From positions 1 through 39,236 of the forward strand of contig JAFZAP010000046.1 of assembly GCA_017557185.1 (NCBI GenBank): a stretch of DNA of 39,236 nucleotides, given 5' to 3'. The translations under genes were made by a program, and so were the position numbers. The notes beneath the pieces are model-generated. The model had not been told where the DNA came from. It saw only the letters and a program-made list of their open reading frames with translations, and ran no database searches. This DNA is from Prevotella sp. Lineage in GTDB: Bacteria; Bacteroidota; Bacteroidia; Bacteroidales; Bacteroidaceae. Positions within the stretch are counted from its first letter, which is position 1. Every line of letters starts with the position of its first letter. Shown piece by piece: positions 268-31,956 of this stretch.

Positions 268-2877
268 TTACTTGATCTTCACCGTGATGCGCTGGAGCTG
301 GCTGCTGTCGCTACTTCCACCCACCATCACCTCATGCCGACCGGGCACAACGCGGATGGTGTTTGTCTCTGTATCCCAGCCTTCGAAGCGCTGGCGAGGC
401 AGGTCTATCTGCACCTGCCGCTTTTCGCCCGGAGCCAGTTCCACTCGCTGGTAGGCACGCAGGCTCTTCAGCGGACCATCGGCATCAGCCAGGTCGCGCA
501 CGTAGACCTGCACAACCTCGGTGCCCACCTTTTGACCCGTGTTGGTTACGTCGACGAAGACCTTGCCGTTTTTGTACTTCGGTTTGCCATAACTGAAGGT
601 AGTGTAGCTCAATCCGTAGCCGAAACAATACTGCGGTGTGCCAGTAAAATAGCGGTATGTGCGCCCGCGCATGCTATAATCCAAGAAATCGGGCAACTGC
701 TCCACGCTCTTGTAGAACGTCACCGGCAGGCGTCCCGACGGGTTATAGTCGCCGAAGAGCACATCGGCTACAGCCGTACCGCCCTGCTCACCCGGATACC
801 ACGCCTGCAAGATTGCCTCTGCCCACTTGCTCTCGCGTTCCAGCGAGATGGCCGAACCAGAACAGTTGACGTATACCACGTGTCGTCCAGCCTTATGGAG
901 TGCCTCCAAAATTTCGCTCTGAGCCTTTGGAAGGTCGATTGATGTGCGGTCACCACCGCGGAATCCCTCCTCGCTGACGCGCATCTCCTCGCCTTCAAGT
1001 CGCGGCGAGATGCCACCCACAAAGACCACTACGTCAGCATTCTCCGTCTGAGCCAGTACATCGTCGATGGAGAATGCGCTACGACGCACAATGTCGAAAT
1101 CGAGGTGAGCCACACCGCTGAACTGCACATAGTCGATCTGCACCTTATAGGAGCGGCCGGCTTCGAGCTGCAATTCGTGGGTCAACGTTGTCAGATGGTG
1201 ACAGAGTTCCCATCGTCTGGCCAACGTGTCGCCGTCGAAAATGATGCGATAGCCGTCGTCGCCCGACAGCGTAAGAATGGCCTTGCCACTCTCGCGCGGG
1301 GTGAGCGTTGCCTCATAGCGGGCACTGAAGTTCTCAAGTCCCACACCTGGTGCAAACACCGTCGCACCGCCGTTGTCCTTTACGACTCCCTGTGTGTGAT
1401 AGCCATTGGTGACAGGAGTGCCCTCCTGCGCGGTATTGTTCCAATAGGTGACGCGCATGCCCTGCAGTCCATCAGGCGTCTTCATCTCGCCAAACAGACT
1501 CTCCTCAGCGATGTTGCGTGTCAGTCCGCAGCCTTTTACGAAGCGCGTTTGCAGAGCCTTCTGGCGAATGCCTTCAAGAATGGTCACGGTATGGGTGGGA
1601 TAGCCGTTGTAGTTGCCCCACATCATCGTGGAGTCGATGGCGTTGGCACCCATCACCACTACTCGCATATCCTTCTGCAAGGGCAGCAGGGGCGTGGAGC
1701 TATCACCGCCGTTCTTCAGCAACACCATACCCTCACGCGCCAGCTGCAGTGCTGTCTGCTTATGCTGTTTGCTGGCAATGGTGCTCTCAGGAATGCGTGT
1801 CCAAGGCACCATTTCGTCTGGATCGAAGTCACCTAAGTCAAATCGGGCTTTAAGCAGGCGGACGATACTCACGTCGATTTGTTCTTCCGTGATTTCACCT
1901 GCCGCCACAGCCTCGGGAAGTGTGCGGAAGTTGCGTCCGCATTCCACGTCGGTACCCGAGAGAACAGCCTTCGCCGAAGCCTCGTGGGCATTGGCCGAAA
2001 CCCCGTGACGATTCTTTTCCCAGAAGTCGTTGACAGCCCAGCAGTCGCTCACCACCAGTCCTTTATAGCCCCACTCGTCGCGCAGAATCTGTTGCAGCAG
2101 ACGGTTGTTGCCGCAGCAGGGATCACCGTCCCAGCGCTGATAGGCACACATCACCTCAGCCACATTTCCCTCCTGCACCAGCGCCTTGAAGGCTGGCAGA
2201 TAGGTTTCCCACAGGTCGCGCTCAGGGAGATCCTCCACATTGAACTGATGGCGGTTCCACTCGGGACCGCTATGGATGGCGAAATGCTTGGCACAAGCCA
2301 GCGTCTTCATGTATTTCGTCGGCCCTATTTGCTGCGGATCTGTATTGTCGCCCTCCTGAAGACCGCGCACAACAGCAAGACCCATCATCGACGTCAGGAA
2401 GGGATCCTCGCCATAAGTCTCCTGTCCGCGTCCCCACCGCGGATCGCGGAAGATGTTGATATTGGGTGTCCAGAACGACAAACTCTGATAGCGCTGCAGC
2501 CTACCCTTTCGCTTGGCAACCATATTCTTGGCACGAGCCTCATCGCTGGCAATGCTGAAAGCCTTACGCACCAGCGCGTCATCCCACGAGGCAGCCATCG
2601 ACATCGTGATGGGGAACACCGTCGCCGTGCCGTTGCGGGCTACGCCATGCAGGGTTTCGTTCCACCAATGGAAGGCAGGAATGCCCAGCCGCTCGATGGC
2701 TGGCGACTCGTCGGTCATGATAAGCGACTTCTCCTGCAGCGTCAATCGTGAGCAGAGGTCACGGGCACGTTCCTCGCTGGAGAGTGCGGGGTTCTGATAA
2801 GGCAGCAACTGCTGCGCAAGGACTGCCGTGCTGAATGTCAGCAGCAGGGCCATAAGGGTGATTCTGGTTTTCATCAT
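268..2877 (-). CDS. Glycoside hydrolase family 3 with PA14 domain, likely beta-xylosidase or beta-glucosidase
   Basis: This is a secreted exo-acting glycosidase releasing sugars from the non-reducing ends of plant oligosaccharides, probably in the periplasm. From ATG 2877 it is 869 residues, beginning with a signal peptide (MKTRITLMALLLTFSTAVLAQ). The GH3 N-terminal barrel carries FHWWNETLHGVA and the nucleophile Asp278 in GLVVSDCW. A PA14 domain with GDDGYRIIFDGD (about residues 470-600) is inserted in the C-terminal GH3 sandwich, and a fibronectin-III-like domain ends the protein. WWNE-LHGVAR with a PA14 insert is typical of Xyl3A-type xylosidases, but the substrate cannot be fixed from sequence. 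No SusC/SusD neighbour is present; dnaK follows downstream. An in-frame TTG at 2901 is less likely as the start because it would precede the signal peptide. Confidence 0.92.
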   Translation of the reverse strand: MMKTRITLMALLLTFSTAVLAQQLLPYQNPALSSEERARDLCSRLTLQEKSLIMTDESPAIERLGIPAFHWWNETLHGVARNGTATVFPITMSMAASWDDALVRKAFSIASDEARAKNMVAKRKGRLQRYQSLSFWTPNINIFRDPRWGRGQETYGEDPFLTSMMGLAVVRGLQEGDNTDPQQIGPTKYMKTLACAKHFAIHSGPEWNRHQFNVEDLPERDLWETYLPAFKALVQEGNVAEVMCAYQRWDGDPCCGNNRLLQQILRDEWGYKGLVVSDCWAVNDFWEKNRHGVSANAHEASAKAVLSGTDVECGRNFRTLPEAVAAGEITEEQIDVSIVRLLKARFDLGDFDPDEMVPWTRIPESTIASKQHKQTALQLAREGMVLLKNGGDSSTPLLPLQKDMRVVVMGANAIDSTMMWGNYNGYPTHTVTILEGIRQKALQTRFVKGCGLTRNIAEESLFGEMKTPDGLQGMRVTYWNNTAQEGTPVTNGYHTQGVVKDNGGATVFAPGVGLENFSARYEATLTPRESGKAILTLSGDDGYRIIFDGDTLARRWELCHHLTTLTHELQLEAGRSYKVQIDYVQFSGVAHLDFDIVRRSAFSIDDVLAQTENADVVVFVGGISPRLEGEEMRVSEEGFRGGDRTSIDLPKAQSEILEALHKAGRHVVYVNCSGSAISLERESKWAEAILQAWYPGEQGGTAVADVLFGDYNPSGRLPVTFYKSVEQLPDFLDYSMRGRTYRYFTGTPQYCFGYGLSYTTFSYGKPKYKNGKVFVDVTNTGQKVGTEVVQVYVRDLADADGPLKSLRAYQRVELAPGEKRQVQIDLPRQRFEGWDTETNTIRVVPGRHEVMVGGSSDSSQLQRITVKIK

Positions 2878-2898
2878 GTAGTTAGCTTTTATCGTGTT

Positions 2899-2906
2899 CA
2901 AAATTA
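2899..2906 (-). promoter_or_regulatory. Possible -7 element for the GH3 gene
   Basis: The minus strand reads TAATTTTG, fitting TAnnTTTG, 22 bp ahead of the ATG. No convincing -33 TTG is seen at the right distance, so this is a weak prediction. Confidence 0.35.
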
Positions 2907-2998
2907 CAAAAAAAACTCTTCATAGCCGAAGAAATGGCTGATTTTTTACGCAGAATGTTGCGCTTTCCACGTTTTTGCCGCGTTTATGGAGTTCGCAA

Positions 2999-3240
2999 CT
3001 GCATTGATTCTGAGTGTTAAGAGCTATGGTCTAGATCCTCTGGAGCATTGCTCTGTGATGTATGGAGCATTGCTCTGTAATGTCTGGAGCATTGCTCTGG
3101 GCCTTCTAGAGCATTGCTCCAGTTGTTCGAAAGCAGTGCTCCGGCCGTCCGAAAGCAGTGCTCCAGCCGTCCGAAAGCATTGCACCAAGCCTCCTGAAGC
3201 ATTGCACCAAGCTATCAAGCGTCTTGCTCTTGCCATCTTC
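2999..3240. repeat. 22-bp phased palindromic array, eleven units
   Basis: Units begin at 2999, 3021, 3043, 3065, 3087, 3109, 3131, 3153, 3175, 3197 and 3219, exactly 22 bp apart. The first 12 bp are conserved (best copies GAGCATTGCTCT, a dyad GAGC-ATT-GCTC) and the remaining 10 bp vary. The outer units are degenerate: CTGCATTGATTC at the left, GCGTCTTGCTCT at the right, AAGCATTGCACC near the right end. The array lies in the divergent spacer between the GH3 gene and the FKBP operon. Short open frames cross it on both strands, but they only read the repeat and are unlikely to be genes. A second array with the same period is at 25940-26093. Confidence 0.93.
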
Positions 3241-3424
3241 TAAAACGGATTTTAGTTGACTTTTTTCATTTTAACCTCACATGCTACCGTTTTCTTTGTA
3301 ACTATATGTGTATCAACTGGTTATGTTTTTCGACACCTCCCGTCACACCTCCCGTTATACCTCCCGTCACACCTCCCGTTACCTTAATAATCTACAAAAT
3401 ATTCTGAATTTTCATGAAAAACGC
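3241..3424. other. AT-rich spacer between array and FKBP promoter
   Basis: Apart from the 12-bp tandem repeat annotated separately, I see no gene, RNA or terminator here. Together with 2878-2998, which holds only the possible GH3 promoter, it completes the 615-bp gene-free divergent region. Confidence 0.7.
3335..3382. repeat. 12-bp tandem repeat, four copies
   Basis: Four head-to-tail copies of ACCTCCCGTYAY start at 3335, 3347, 3359 and 3371. Copies 1 and 3 end TCAC; copies 2 and 4 end TTAT or TTAC, so the true duplication unit may be 24 bp. It lies about 45 bp upstream of the FKBP operon promoter. Confidence 0.9.
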
Positions 3425-3492: not shown

Positions 3493-4098
3493 ATGGATAA
3501 AGTAAGTTATGCTCTGGGCCTCGGCATCGGCCGTCAGCTGAGCGACATGGGTGCCCGCGATCTGAACATTGATGATTTTGCACAGGCCATCAAGGATGTC
3601 ATCGCCGGTAGCAAGCTGGCAATCGACAACCGCGAGGCACAGCAGATTGTACAGGAATTCTTCCAGGCTCAAGAGAAGAAGCAGCGTGCTGCAGCCGCCG
3701 AGAAGCACAAGGCCCTGAAAGCCGAGGGCGAACAATATCTGGCCGAGAATGCCAAGAAGCCAGGCGTAGTGACGCTGCCCAGCGGTTTGCAGTATCAGGT
3801 GTTGCGCGAGGGCAACGGCAAGAAGCCGAAAGCTACCGACAGCGTGCGCTGCCACTATGAAGGTATGCTCGTCGATGGAACGCTCTTCGACAGCAGCATT
3901 CAGCGCGGCGAACCTGCCACCTTCCCCCTGAACGGCGTCATCGCCGGTTGGACCGAGGGTCTTCAGTTGATGCAGGAAGGTGCGAAGTATCGCTTCTTCA
4001 TCCCCTACCATCTGGGCTACGGCGAGCGTGGTGCCGGTGGTAGCATCCCACCCTTTGCCGCTCTGGTGTTCGATGTGGAACTGATTGAAGTGGTTTAA
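3493..4098 (+). CDS. FKBP-type peptidyl-prolyl cis-trans isomerase, cytosolic
   Basis: This 201-residue protein is a FKBP-family prolyl isomerase, accelerating cis-trans isomerisation of X-Pro bonds during folding. The N-terminal half (about 1-90) is the helical dimerisation region of the FkpA/FklB group, beginning MDKVSYALGLGIGRQL and ending in a Lys/Ala-rich helix. The C-terminal FKBP domain (about 105-200) has TLPSGLQYQVLREGNG, VRCHYEGMLVDGTLFDSS and PYHLGYGERGAGGSIPPFAALVFDVEL. There is no signal peptide, so it should act in the cytoplasm, unlike the next two genes. It is the first gene of a three-paralogue operon with a good promoter just upstream. Family assignment is certain; clients are unknown. 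Confidence 0.95.
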   Translation: MDKVSYALGLGIGRQLSDMGARDLNIDDFAQAIKDVIAGSKLAIDNREAQQIVQEFFQAQEKKQRAAAAEKHKALKAEGEQYLAENAKKPGVVTLPSGLQYQVLREGNGKKPKATDSVRCHYEGMLVDGTLFDSSIQRGEPATFPLNGVIAGWTEGLQLMQEGAKYRFFIPYHLGYGERGAGGSIPPFAALVFDVELIEVV

Positions 4099-6698: not shown

Positions 6699-8633
6699 AT
6701 GAAAGCATTTCATCTGCAATCGCATCTCGAAGAGATATACAGCAAGTTTCCTGAAGGAAACCCACGCCCCATCGTTGGCATCACCGCCAACTATGAAGGC
6801 ATGGACGCTACGCTGCGCGACCGCTACTACCAGCAGATCGTCAACGCCGGCGGCACACCTGTCATCATCCCGCCTATTGCCGACAAGGATGTTATCGTGA
6901 ATACCCTCGACAGCATCGACGCTCTGCTGCTCAGCGGCGGTGGTGATTACAACCCTTTGTGGGCTGGTGAAGAGCCGGTGTCAGACCGTTTGCATATCAA
7001 TGCTGTTCGCGACCTGCCTGAACTGCTGATTACGATGCTTGCCTACAATCGCCAGATTCCCATGCTGGGCATCTGTCGCGGCATGCAGACACTGGCGATG
7101 GCACTGGGTGGACATGTGGCTCAGGACATTTCAATTGTTGCTGCGCAACGTTCAAATAGTTCAAATGGTTCAATGCGCTTCGCGCGTTCAAAAGGATCAA
7201 AGGTTGAAGGTGTAAGCATCAAACACTCGCAGGATGCCGACCGCCAGGAACCTACGCACAGCGTGAATATCGAGAAGGATTCCATCCTTTTCGACCTTTA
7301 TGGAGGAAGCCCCACCCCCGACCCCTCCCCCGTAGGGAGGGGAGAATGGGAGGGAAGACTGGAGAATGGGAAATTGAAAATGCTTGTAAACTCCTTCCAT
7401 CATCAGGCGGTGGACAATCCCGGCGAGCTCTTTAGGGCTACTGCCTTGGCTCCCGACGGTGTCATTGAGGCCATGGAGAGCAAGGAGCACAAGATGATCA
7501 TGGGCGTGCAGTGGCATCCGGAATGGATGGAAGAGGCCGGACTGCCACTTTTCCAGTGGCTCGTCGCACAGGGCAGTAACTTCCGCGTTGCCAAGCAGCT
7601 GCATCGCCGCATCATCACTCTTGACACCCACTGCGACACGCCGATGTTCTTCCCGCAAGGCATACACTTCGAGCAGCGCGATGAACGCATCCTTGTCGAT
7701 CTGCACAAGATGACCGAAGGCCGACAAGATGCTGTGATCATGGCCGCCTACCTGCCCCAACCCAAGATGGGTGAGACGTTCTCGGCCACGCTGCAGCAGT
7801 CGTCGTCGTTTGCCGGCATCACCGACAAGGCCATCACCACAACCCCCTATGCCTATGCCAATGGTATCTTTGACCAGATAGAAGATATCGTAGCCAACAA
7901 CAGCCGCTACATCAGCATTGCCCGCACGCCTGCCGACCTCTATGCCGACAAGCGACAAGGCAGGAAGTCTATCATGTTTGCCATTGAGAACGGACTGGCG
8001 CTGGAGCACGACCTGGCGAATGTGAAGCGGTTTGCTCAGCGTGGTGTGGTATATATCACCCTTTGCCATAACGGTGATAACGACATCTGCGACTCTGCCC
8101 GTGGTTGCAACACCCACGAAGGTGTTTCGCAGTTTGGCGAGCAGGTAATCCGCGAGATGAACCATCAGGGCATCATGGTTGACCTGAGCCATGCTGCCGA
8201 GAAGAGTTTCTACGATGCTTTGGAGATCAGTGAGACACCTATCGTGTGCAGTCACAGCAACTGCCGTGCCCTGTGCGACCATCCTCGCAACCTCACCGAC
8301 GACCAGTTGCGCGCCTTGGCTGCCCGCGGCGGCGTTGCCCACACCACGCTTTATGGCGGATTCCTGCGCCAGCACGGTGAAGCCCGTATCCTTGATGCCA
8401 TCAGTCATCTGGAGCACGCCATCGAGGTGATGGGTATCGACCATGTCGGCCTGGGCACCGACTTCGATGGTGACGGTGGTGTGAGAGGTCTTGCCAATTC
8501 GTCGGAGCTCATCAACTTCACGCTGGAGTTGTTGCGCCGCAAGTATAGCGAGCGCGATATTCGCAAGATCTGGGGTGGCAACTGGCTGCGCGTCATGACC
8601 GAGGTTCAGGGGAGAGGGGGAAATAATAAATAA
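6699..8633 (+). CDS. Fusion of peptidase C26 (gamma-glutamyl hydrolase-like) and M19 membrane dipeptidase
   Basis: A 644-residue two-domain enzyme. Residues 1 to about 285 form a class I glutamine-amidotransferase-like domain of the PuuD/gamma-Glu-GABA hydrolase type: GICRGMQ with nucleophile Cys126, and QWHPEW with His273 and Glu275. Residues about 305-640 form an M19 dipeptidase: DTHCDTP (His311, Asp313), ENGLALEHD, DLSHAAEKSF, PIVCSHSNCRAL and HVGLGTDFDGD, so the metal ligands are present. It would hydrolyse gamma-glutamyl amides and dipeptides; no signal peptide is seen, so it is probably cytosolic. The C26 domain is about 40-50 residues longer than usual because residues about 147-169 and 204-228 are encoded by repeat DNA resembling intergenic elements elsewhere in the window. 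The frame stays open through both. Substrates are unknown. Confidence 0.9.
   Translation: MKAFHLQSHLEEIYSKFPEGNPRPIVGITANYEGMDATLRDRYYQQIVNAGGTPVIIPPIADKDVIVNTLDSIDALLLSGGGDYNPLWAGEEPVSDRLHINAVRDLPELLITMLAYNRQIPMLGICRGMQTLAMALGGHVAQDISIVAAQRSNSSNGSMRFARSKGSKVEGVSIKHSQDADRQEPTHSVNIEKDSILFDLYGGSPTPDPSPVGRGEWEGRLENGKLKMLVNSFHHQAVDNPGELFRATALAPDGVIEAMESKEHKMIMGVQWHPEWMEEAGLPLFQWLVAQGSNFRVAKQLHRRIITLDTHCDTPMFFPQGIHFEQRDERILVDLHKMTEGRQDAVIMAAYLPQPKMGETFSATLQQSSSFAGITDKAITTTPYAYANGIFDQIEDIVANNSRYISIARTPADLYADKRQGRKSIMFAIENGLALEHDLANVKRFAQRGVVYITLCHNGDNDICDSARGCNTHEGVSQFGEQVIREMNHQGIMVDLSHAAEKSFYDALEISETPIVCSHSNCRALCDHPRNLTDDQLRALAARGGVAHTTLYGGFLRQHGEARILDAISHLEHAIEVMGIDHVGLGTDFDGDGGVRGLANSSELINFTLELLRRKYSERDIRKIWGGNWLRVMTEVQGRGGNNK
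7137..7206 (+). repeat. Hairpin/GTTCAA modular repeat inside a coding region
   Basis: The hairpin GTTGC-TGC-GCAAC (7137-7149) is followed by GTTCAAATAGTTCAAATGG, then by the hairpin GCGC-TTC-GCGC (7175-7185) and GTTCAAAAGGATCAAAGG. The same architecture occurs outside genes at 24949-25025 and 30435-30504. Here it adds about 23 codons to the C26 domain without breaking the frame. Confidence 0.8.
7308..7346 (+). repeat. 39-bp GC-rich hairpin repeat, copy 1 (intragenic)
   Basis: This segment is identical over 39 bp to 9678-9716. Its core CCCCTCCC-CCGTA-GGGAGGGG can form an eight-base-pair stem. In this frame it encodes SPTPDPSPVGRGE within the C26 domain, between the strand before the second half-domain and VNSFHHQAV. 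Confidence 0.93.
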
Positions 8634-9677: not shown

Positions 9678-9716
9678 AGCCCCACCCCCGACCCCTCCCC
9701 CGTAGGGAGGGGAGAA
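9678..9716. repeat. 39-bp GC-rich hairpin repeat, copy 2 (intergenic)
   Basis: Identical to 7308-7346 and in the same orientation, 2370 bp away. It fills the 47-bp gap between the convergent M28 and DUF4294 genes, where the CCCCTCCC/GGGAGGGG stem could also serve as a terminator in either direction. Confidence 0.93.
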
Positions 9717-24948: not shown

Positions 24949-25068
24949 GCGCCGCAGGCGCGTTCAAAAAGTTCAATGCTTCTACGCAGCGTTCAAAGGT
25001 TCAATGCGCCGCAAGCGCGTTCAACTATCCGCTCGACCCGCAGGGGCGCTTTCATAGCGAAGCGGAGA
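24949..25068. repeat. Hairpin/GTTCAA modular repeat tract
   Basis: Immediately after tRNA-Arg comes the hairpin GCGCC-GCA-GGCGC (24949-24961), GTTCAAAAAGTTCAAT, the weak hairpin GCTTCTACGCAGC, GTTCAAAGGTTCAAT, then GCGCCGCAAGCGC (25006-25018) and GTTCAAC. A further hairpin-rich stretch with GCGCTTTCATAGCGAAGCG runs to 25068. The following 40 bp is an AACTATCAACTAT-like simple repeat. No gene is seen between the tRNA and 25110. Confidence 0.85.
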
Positions 25069-25939: not shown

Positions 25940-26093
25940 GAACATTACTCCCAGAGTTGAAAAGCATAGCTCCCCGTTGTCTAGAGCTATGCTCTAGTTG
26001 TTATGGAGCATTGCTCTACATGGTACAGAGCATTGCTCTGCATGATAAGGAGCATAGCTCTGTAAGGTACGGAGCAATGCTCTATAGCAACAA
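25940..26093. repeat. 22-bp phased palindromic array, seven units
   Basis: Units start at 25940, 25962, 25984, 26006, 26028, 26050 and 26072, exactly 22 bp apart. The 12-bp core is GAGC-NNN-GCTC followed by T or C, and the centre varies between units (TAT, ATT, ATA, AAT) while the arms are kept. The 10-bp remainders differ. The first two units are degenerate. The array sits in the convergent spacer between the ADP-ribosylglycohydrolase and secDF and belongs to the same family as 2999-3240. Confidence 0.93.
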
Positions 26094-26096
26094 AAC

Positions 26097-26126
26097 AAGG
26101 TGGGCAACCAGCTGGCTGCCCACCTT
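26097..26126. terminator. Bidirectional terminator between ADP-ribosylglycohydrolase and secDF
   Basis: AAGGTGGGCA (26097-26106) pairs perfectly with TGCCCACCTT (26117-26126) across a 10-base loop that itself contains CAGCTG. On the minus strand it is followed by GTTTTGTTG, fitting termination of secDF; the plus-strand side is AT-rich. Confidence 0.85.
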
Positions 26127-26131
26127 ATTAT

Positions 26132-31571: not shown

Positions 31572-31620
31572 TCACCAAATTGTGAAATTTTCATATTTTA
31601 ATCATTTAAAAACCAAGTTT

Positions 31621-31893
31621 ATGAACAAGACAGAATTGATCGCAAAGATTGCAGAGACCGCTGGTCTTAGCAAAGTTGATGCAAAGAAGGCTCTTGACGC
31701 AGCCGTTGCAGCAGTGAAGGACGCTCTCGTAGCAGGTGACAAGGTACAGCTCGTTGGCTTCGGCACATTCGCCGTAAAGGTGCAGCCCGCTCGTGAGGGT
31801 ATCAACCCCGCTACCAAGGCTAAGATTAAGATTGCTGCTAAGAAAGTTGCTAAGTTCAAGGCTGGCGCTGAGCTCGCTGAGGCTGTGAAGTAA
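31621..31893 (+). CDS. HU-family nucleoid DNA-binding protein
   Basis: A 90-residue HU/IHF-family protein: MNKTELIAKIAETAGLSKVDAKKALDAAV forms the dimerising helices, VQLVGFGTFAVKVQPAREGINPATK is the strand/arm with a variant of the GRNPxTG motif, and the basic C-terminal helix completes the fold. It bends and compacts DNA as a dimer. An in-frame extension reaches 31558, but ATG 31621 matches the family start and lies downstream of the promoter. It is followed by two hairpins. There is no evidence for a specialised role. Confidence 0.96.
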   Translation: MNKTELIAKIAETAGLSKVDAKKALDAAVAAVKDALVAGDKVQLVGFGTFAVKVQPAREGINPATKAKIKIAAKKVAKFKAGAELAEAVK

Positions 31894-31898
31894 GAAAA

Positions 31899-31956
31899 TT
31901 TGTAAAGATTTTTACAAATAAAAAGAAGCGGTTGCCAACAGGCGATCGCTTCTTTT
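31899..31956. terminator. Terminator(s) between HU and kduD
   Basis: TTTGTAAA-GATT-TTTACAAA (31899-31918) is followed by AAAAGAAGCG/CGCTTCTTTT (31921-31930 with 31947-31956), which ends in TTTTCTTTTTG. The second hairpin can terminate both HU (plus) and kduD (minus). Confidence 0.85.

Follow-up and report, generated by a model that had tools for sequence, protein, structure and literature searches.

Tandem 22-bp palindrome arrays in intergenic DNA of Prevotella as possible docking tracks for DNA-binding proteins

Intergenic minisatellites of bacteria are usually taken as neutral. In a contig of Prevotella sp. (JAFZAP010000046.1, positions 1 to 39,236, called the window here) the region between the genes of a family 3 glycoside hydrolase (GH3) and an FKBP-type peptidyl-prolyl isomerase (FKBP) contains a row of short palindromes at constant distance, denoted array 1. 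This raises the question whether such a row is a neutral repeat, an operator of the neighbouring genes, a string of RNA hairpins or a track on double-stranded DNA that is occupied by proteins. Here, we describe the arrays of the window, follow their distribution in the source genome (G000) and in related genomes, and weigh the possible explanations.

The arrays of the window

Array 1 shows the GAGCNNNGCTC dyad as core, repeated in tandem at an exact pitch of 22 bp in nine clear units (window 3022-3206). Six of them (starts 3044 to 3154) contain AGCNNNGCT exactly and three further in-phase units (3022, 3176 and 3198) contain it with one mismatch. The strict 22-bp tandem arrangement around a dyad, as given in a preliminary description of this DNA, is confirmed. 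GAGCANTGCTC is found seven times in the window (four copies in array 1, three in array 2) versus a mean of 0.07 in shuffled sequences. Other details of that description have to be modified. The eleven units mentioned there include two badly decayed ends, because the in-phase left-end unit at 3000 keeps 4/6 core bases and the last unit (3218-3228) has a 5-nt centre, located 21 bp centre-to-centre from the preceding unit (both judged by eye). The core is a dyad indeed, but instead of a 12-bp core with 10-bp spacers each unit consists of an 11-bp dyad and an 11-bp spacer, and the full GAGCATTGCTC occurs in four units only. An 85-aa open reading frame at 2986-3243 is a spurious small ORF over array 1, and annotators should be aware that array stretches yield such ORFs.

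Array 1 is located in a divergent region, as already stated in the preliminary description, because GH3 is encoded on the minus and FKBP on the plus strand. Array 2, which was missed in the first reading, belongs to the same family and is found between the convergent genes of an ADP-ribosylglycohydrolase and SecDF (Pfam); the inverted repeat that adjoins it is separate from the array and perhaps the bidirectional terminator of this convergent pair. Parts of the companion repeat next to array 1 recur beside other arrays of the source genome and of RUG178, a rumen member of the Prevotellaceae. Such partial copies lie 47-396 bp from two other arrays on contig C2 of the source genome and near arrays in two RUG178 loci (L067 and L072).

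Table 1. Positions of arrays and other features in the window and in further loci (L, locus handles; G000, source genome; G348, array-rich genome).
Feature	Position	Strand	Remarks
GH3 gene	268..2901	-	left neighbour of array 1; Pfam
Stretch of 418 bp	2963..3380	.	array 1 and companion repeat; absent at orthologous locus of two sister species
Array 1	3000..3228	.	nine clear units and two decayed ends; end units by eye
Perfect GAGCATTGCTC cores (n=4)	3043..3119	.	starts 3043, 3065, 3087, 3109
Companion intergenic repeat	3260..3381	+	part of about 57 bp together with 12-bp ACACCTCCCGTC repeats
FKBP gene	3493..4098	+	right neighbour of array 1; Pfam
CCCCACCCCCGA repeat	7310-7332, 9680-9702		two copies; also in intergenic stretch of G000 contig C2
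GCGCCGCAAGCGCGTTCAAAAGTTCAAT tandem repeat	24949-25024		directly downstream of tRNA-Arg
Array 2	25963..26081	.	six units, all exact AGCNNNGCT, exact 22-bp pitch
Imperfect inverted repeat	26094..26129	.	36 bp, 89% self-match; adjoins array 2
HU-HIG-like match	31609-31905		interrupted by two in-frame stops; perhaps the remnant of an HU-type gene
AGTAAATTAAGTTAATTTACT-type family, G000	L035:6118-6248, L038:4515-4645, L040:10440-10567, L044:992-1117		
AT-rich GTAATATATAATATATT-type family, G000	L032:17046-17155		again in L200
HU-HIG loci with array	G000: L195, L196, L202, L203; G348: L209, L216, L224, L232		

Distribution, location and turnover

Two AGCN3GCT units spaced by 22 bp are present as 206 adjacent pairs on many contigs of the 3.35-Mb source assembly, and the reversed control of this pattern gave 0 matches in the same assembly. 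In 761 kb of this genome, mostly taken from contigs already known to list arrays, we found 21 arrays of three or more units, which together comprise 124 units. Of the steps between units, 98 measure 22 bp, three 44 bp and two 23 bp. All 21 arrays are intergenic, with one of them overlapping the end of a called gene by 2 bp (genes were called by a simple codon-score caller, CDS fraction about 0.87). Their density is uneven or overstated, because contigs with listed arrays had been chosen and 236 kb from other contigs (the first 20 kb each of C1, C3, C4, C8-C10, C12-C18 and C20-C26) revealed one further array versus 14 in 425 kb of the array-picked contigs (plus the window); selection, an assembly mixture or a regional difference could be responsible for this contrast. 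At least two further palindromic families with a 22-bp pitch exist in the same genome, namely of the AGTAAATTAAGTTAATTTACT and the GTAATATATAATATATT type.

Among 60 genomes the stricter GAGC pair pattern is restricted to the source genome. Out of 398 genomes from the genus, 121 (the source genome among them) contain the three-unit AGC pattern with at most two mismatches, with up to 415 matches, and 18 genomes besides the source genome hold between 55 and 415 of them. This means that the phased motif, for which a search in related Prevotella genomes had been recommended, is not absent from the relatives. Single three-unit matches may nevertheless be due to chance, because 52 of the 398 genomes (hand count) contain the reversed control TCGN3CGA as well, mostly with 1 to 6 matches each. 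In a few genomes the control far exceeds the AGC pattern (70 against 3 matches in G270, 44 against 2 in G367), which we read as the presence of another palindrome at the 22-bp pitch. At the family level 23 of 201 genomes matched, five of which belong to the same genus. A scan with the AWT core yielded 11 stretches, i.e. six in RUG178, one each in Prevotella RUI067 and in RGIG2694 (with 37, 1 and 4 GAGC pairs per genome, respectively), and three in Mycobacterium, Acidiferrimicrobium and Lachnospiraceae that were judged as chance, with Mycobacterium and Lachnospiraceae having one pair per genome. A match in a viral contig (L051) was also judged as chance, being a single pair in an apparent coding sequence.

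The feature shared among these organisms is the period and not the sequence. Analysis of sampled contigs with TRF gave a peak at 22 bp that comprises unrelated palindromes, e.g., TTGGCAGCGGCCGCTGCCATCA, AGTAACCCACGTGGTTACTGTC and AAAAGCTTAGCTTTTGC, and several palindrome families coexist in one genome. The sampled relatives comprise 12 genomes from the genus and one from another genus of the family, many of them chosen for AGC or reversed matches and one contig of G341 with a known match. In these 13 genomes 38 of the 54 intergenic tandem arrays with periods of 15-30 bp have a period of 22 bp, 11 of 21 bp and five of other lengths, and among coding arrays of the same range 22 bp occurs once, 21 bp seven times and other periods ten times. 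Genomes of the genus with no or few matches possess three (G083, G099), two (G403) or no (G104, G069) period-22 arrays, and G571 from the other genus, with 17 matches, contains four. There is no peak at 22 bp in 200 kb of E. coli K-12 (none at 22, one at 21 bp) or in 273 kb from other families within the order (20 genomes; 22 and 21 bp once each, 20 and 23 bp three times each), with coding and intergenic arrays counted together in both controls. Most of the sampled stretches in this work were drawn from genomes or contigs with known matches.

At the GH3-FKBP locus of RUG178 and RGIG2694, which are mostly 94-97% identical over the syntenic stretch, about 26-27 bp replace the 418 bp with array 1 and both flanks are conserved; these flanks should hold the divergent promoters of GH3 and FKBP. 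Two arrays common to both sister genomes differ by one unit each (4 versus 5, and 10 versus 11 with a clean 22-nt gap). Such one-unit differences between near-identical genomes support the birth and death of repeats assumed in the preliminary description. Considering 58 intergenic 22-bp arrays for which both neighbours were called (source genome included), 18 are located in convergent, 7 in divergent and 33 in co-directional regions, which comprise 19%, 23% and 58% of intergenic bases, respectively. Arrays are thus over-represented between convergent genes and under-represented between divergent ones. For the AGC arrays of the source genome alone the corresponding numbers are 7, 3 and 8 of 18.

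Constraint on the pitch and possible explanations

The distances between exact cores in 761 kb of the source genome, counted with no selection for pitch, are 22 bp in 55 and 23 bp in two cases but never 20, 21 or 24 bp, and at longer range 44 bp (38 times), 45 bp (twice), 66 bp (27 times) and 67 bp (twice). Over 72 pairs of adjacent spacers, five of them identical, the difference amounts to 5.03 of 13 sites, and intergenic DNA of the sister genomes contains 44 indels versus 265 substitutions, therefore roughly 46 pitch breaks are expected for the 55 exact-core neighbours whereas two were seen (both 23 bp). Unit conversion could lower the expected number, and the pitch could be partly inherited via unit duplication and conversion. 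Within the core-selected arrays the AGC/GCT positions reach 1.45-1.93 bits and positions 7-11 from the centre 0.02-0.51 bits. Among 34 TRF arrays picked without regard to the core (ungapped and at least 60 bp long, out of 47 ungapped ones) the dyad-paired columns are more conserved than the unpaired in 27, and 7/9 dyad pairs are present in 44% of their consensus units versus 12% of shuffled ones; neutral decay of a palindromic ancestor might add to this conservation. In one orthologous array of the sister genomes core positions differ at 2/60 and other sites at 14/148, which is a trend only.

Two turns at 11 bp per turn are expected for negatively supercoiled DNA in the cell. A cooperative phased array should place its dyads a whole number of helical turns apart and leave the spacers free, and this arrangement is found here. 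Helical phasing and a probable binding of protein, both proposed already from the first reading, are supported by the pitch held despite drifting spacers and by 49 of the 54 intergenic arrays at 21 or 22 bp. Periods of 10-11 bp are treated in PMC3940949.

From these data we suggest that the arrays are double-stranded DNA docking tracks for putative dimeric DNA-binding proteins, an explanation whose chances we regard as evenly balanced. Each 22-bp unit would offer one dyad to one protein dimer, and with two turns of about 11 bp successive dimers would come to lie on one face of the helix, where contact is possible. A cooperative track is favoured because the two-turn pitch would put dyad-bound dimers on the same side. 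The arrays would grow and shrink by whole units, appear and vanish between species and lie between genes with no effect on any particular neighbour, the likeliest role being in local nucleoid architecture or insulation. In different species, or in different families within one genome, different cores would keep the same pitch and therefore point to binders of like geometry and diverging specificity. Several families per genome would require several binders, which counts against docking tracks. The convergence on two turns argues for a physical constraint that acts on double-stranded DNA and is probably exerted by a protein filament. The genus is common in the gut and the rumen and offers many natural test arrays, for which a half-turn insertion is predicted to destroy function.

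The arrays could also be neutral or selfish minisatellites whose palindromic units multiply by slippage and conversion and are now and then transposed together with a companion element, so that 22 bp would reflect the mode of multiplication and not a bound protein. Arrays that come and go between species and differ by single units fit this explanation, as do the dispersed companion repeat beside some of them and the 23-nt (BrickBuilt) and, in strain W83, 22-nt tandem repeats reported for Porphyromonas gingivalis (PMC4596501). However, neither the pitch kept despite spacer drift nor a common period and dyad in unrelated sequences is expected without constraint, and we consider this explanation rather unlikely. 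A common mobile element was rejected, since the companion repeat is found near some arrays only and an all-against-all comparison of the 250-bp flanks of 21 arrays revealed no constant leader or tail, only scattered repeats with a longest of 113 bp between two arrays. REP-like elements that owe their movement to a Y1 (REP-associated) transposase are a highly improbable explanation: the palindromes are dispersed and intergenic and the source genome has three Y1 matches, but a Y1 match occurs in 8 of the 18 relatives that hold 50 or more array matches versus 196 of 398 genomes overall, and G063 (230 array matches, 81% complete) has none. Mobilisation by RAYT was thus rejected, as array numbers show no association with Y1_Tnp. 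Operator arrays that control neighbours such as GH3 and FKBP, considered as a possibility in the preliminary description, are very improbable, in spite of the divergent position of array 1 and of some arrays 5' of HU-HIG genes, because the sister species without array 1 keep both flanks and arrays are rarer in divergent regions. Promoter control of this gene pair was rejected on account of the empty site, and a regulon likewise, as the 36 nearest neighbours of 21 arrays share no function in Pfam (three neighbours crossing piece borders were left out and three other window proteins added).

Transcription into strings of hairpins, with a function as 3' stabiliser, terminator or protein sponge, would fit the enrichment in convergent regions, and the RNA of array 1 folds far better than shuffled sequences on both strands (z -6.95 and -5.52), as would that of any palindrome array. 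At core pairs 2-5, however, 124 units show no compensatory change (z -0.9 to 0, observed similar to shuffled), and complementarity is below expectation at pair 1 (z -2.4) and pair 6 (z -3.7). Pair 6 (positions -6/+6) combines G with T in 43 and A with C in 38 units (81 of 124 in total), i.e. G.U on one strand often where the other has A.C, which could be counted in favour of RNA. The same holds for pairs 8 and 9 (z 5.0 and 3.2 in AGC-family units of the source genome), where complementarity exceeds expectation and shared ancestry of units is the sole explanation we can offer. Units are coherently oriented in most arrays and mixed in some, including array 1, with no link to gene direction in eight co-directional cases (three agree, four oppose, one is tied). 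Furthermore, RNA does not need an exact pitch, array 2 is adjoined by a separate inverted repeat, and array 1 lies between flanks that should hold divergent promoters. Double-stranded DNA is favoured over RNA hairpins because the core lacks compensatory changes and orientation ignores transcription. Thus, the hairpin alternative of the preliminary description is right in that the single strand folds well, but as a function it is disfavoured by pairs 2-5, orientation and strict pitch, and we regard it as quite improbable.

If docking tracks are assumed, HU-HIG proteins are a weak lead to their binder. A 22-bp array is present at 10 of 19 HU-HIG loci (6/15 in G000 and 4/4 in G348, the latter covering 4 of 15 matches) versus 3 of 20 HTH_3 loci. 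They stay a lead, because these paralogous copies have flanks in common, the figure for G348 covers part of its matches and in seven other array-rich genomes an array accompanies 5 of 26 HU-HIG loci. Among the paralogues with an array about 0.14-0.65 kb away, four have it on the 5' and four on the 3' side. A far-reaching version would be a chromosome-wide and fast-evolving docking code in Prevotella and close kin, in which every array family would have a separate dimeric nucleoid protein as its reader, possibly a member of the expanded HU-HIG family, and core and reader would change together between species at fixed 22-bp geometry; this is speculative and in our opinion unlikely.

Comparison with known repeat systems

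REP and BIME sequences with their RAYT transposases are dispersed intergenic palindromes of many copies and resemble the arrays in this respect, but they do not form exact two-turn tandem arrays, and the arrays lack a tie to Y1 transposases even in repeat-rich genomes. Plasmid iterons and the ArgR and MetJ boxes are tandem sites bound cooperatively on one face. With them the arrays have in common repeats about two turns apart or tandem-packed, one dimer per dyad and free spacers, but iterons and operators occupy one or few loci with a known protein, in contrast to the many cores and the tens of sites in each genome seen here. In CRISPR loci, of which a genome has one or few, the repeats measure at least about 23 bp and are separated by unique spacers that are about as long. 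The arrays share palindromic repeats and variable spacers with them but differ by repeats that are too short (11-bp dyads), by spacers of 11 bp, some of which are identical or nearly so in neighbouring units, and by their dispersal as 206 adjacent pairs over many contigs. A scan of 39 proteins, including 36 encoded directly next to one of 21 arrays, revealed no members of cas families. That the array is not CRISPR, as previously concluded, is supported by the many dispersed arrays and the 11-bp spacers.

Another known repeat is that of Porphyromonas gingivalis, which we take to belong to the same order as the host of the arrays. BrickBuilt is described as a minisatellite MITE with an intergenic 23-nt tandem repeat at 19 places, limited to the species, with imperfect units that vary mostly in one half and with a leader and tail carrying IS5-like terminal inverted repeats (PMC4596501). 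It is similar in its intergenic tandem repeats, imperfect units and unit length, but has 23 instead of 22 bp and represents one family in one species group, and the sections describing it mention neither a palindromic core nor a constant pitch across unrelated sequences (PMC4596501). The arrays, on the other hand, have a period of 22 bp and no common leader and tail in their flanks. PINSR from Prevotella intermedia and relatives is also intergenic, lineage-specific and present in many copies (177 and 184 in two strains), shows no terminal inverted repeats and has no assigned function in its description (PMC4755523). Its description is that of a single 188-bp repeat instead of 22-bp phased palindromes (PMC4755523). 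In the open-licence literature, as far as it was accessible, we found no report of a genus-wide family of 22-bp phased palindromes. BrickBuilt and PINSR are the nearest described repeats that we found and neither, as described, has a constant two-turn pitch across unrelated palindromes. What unites the arrays is the convergence of unrelated palindromes from several species on two helical turns.
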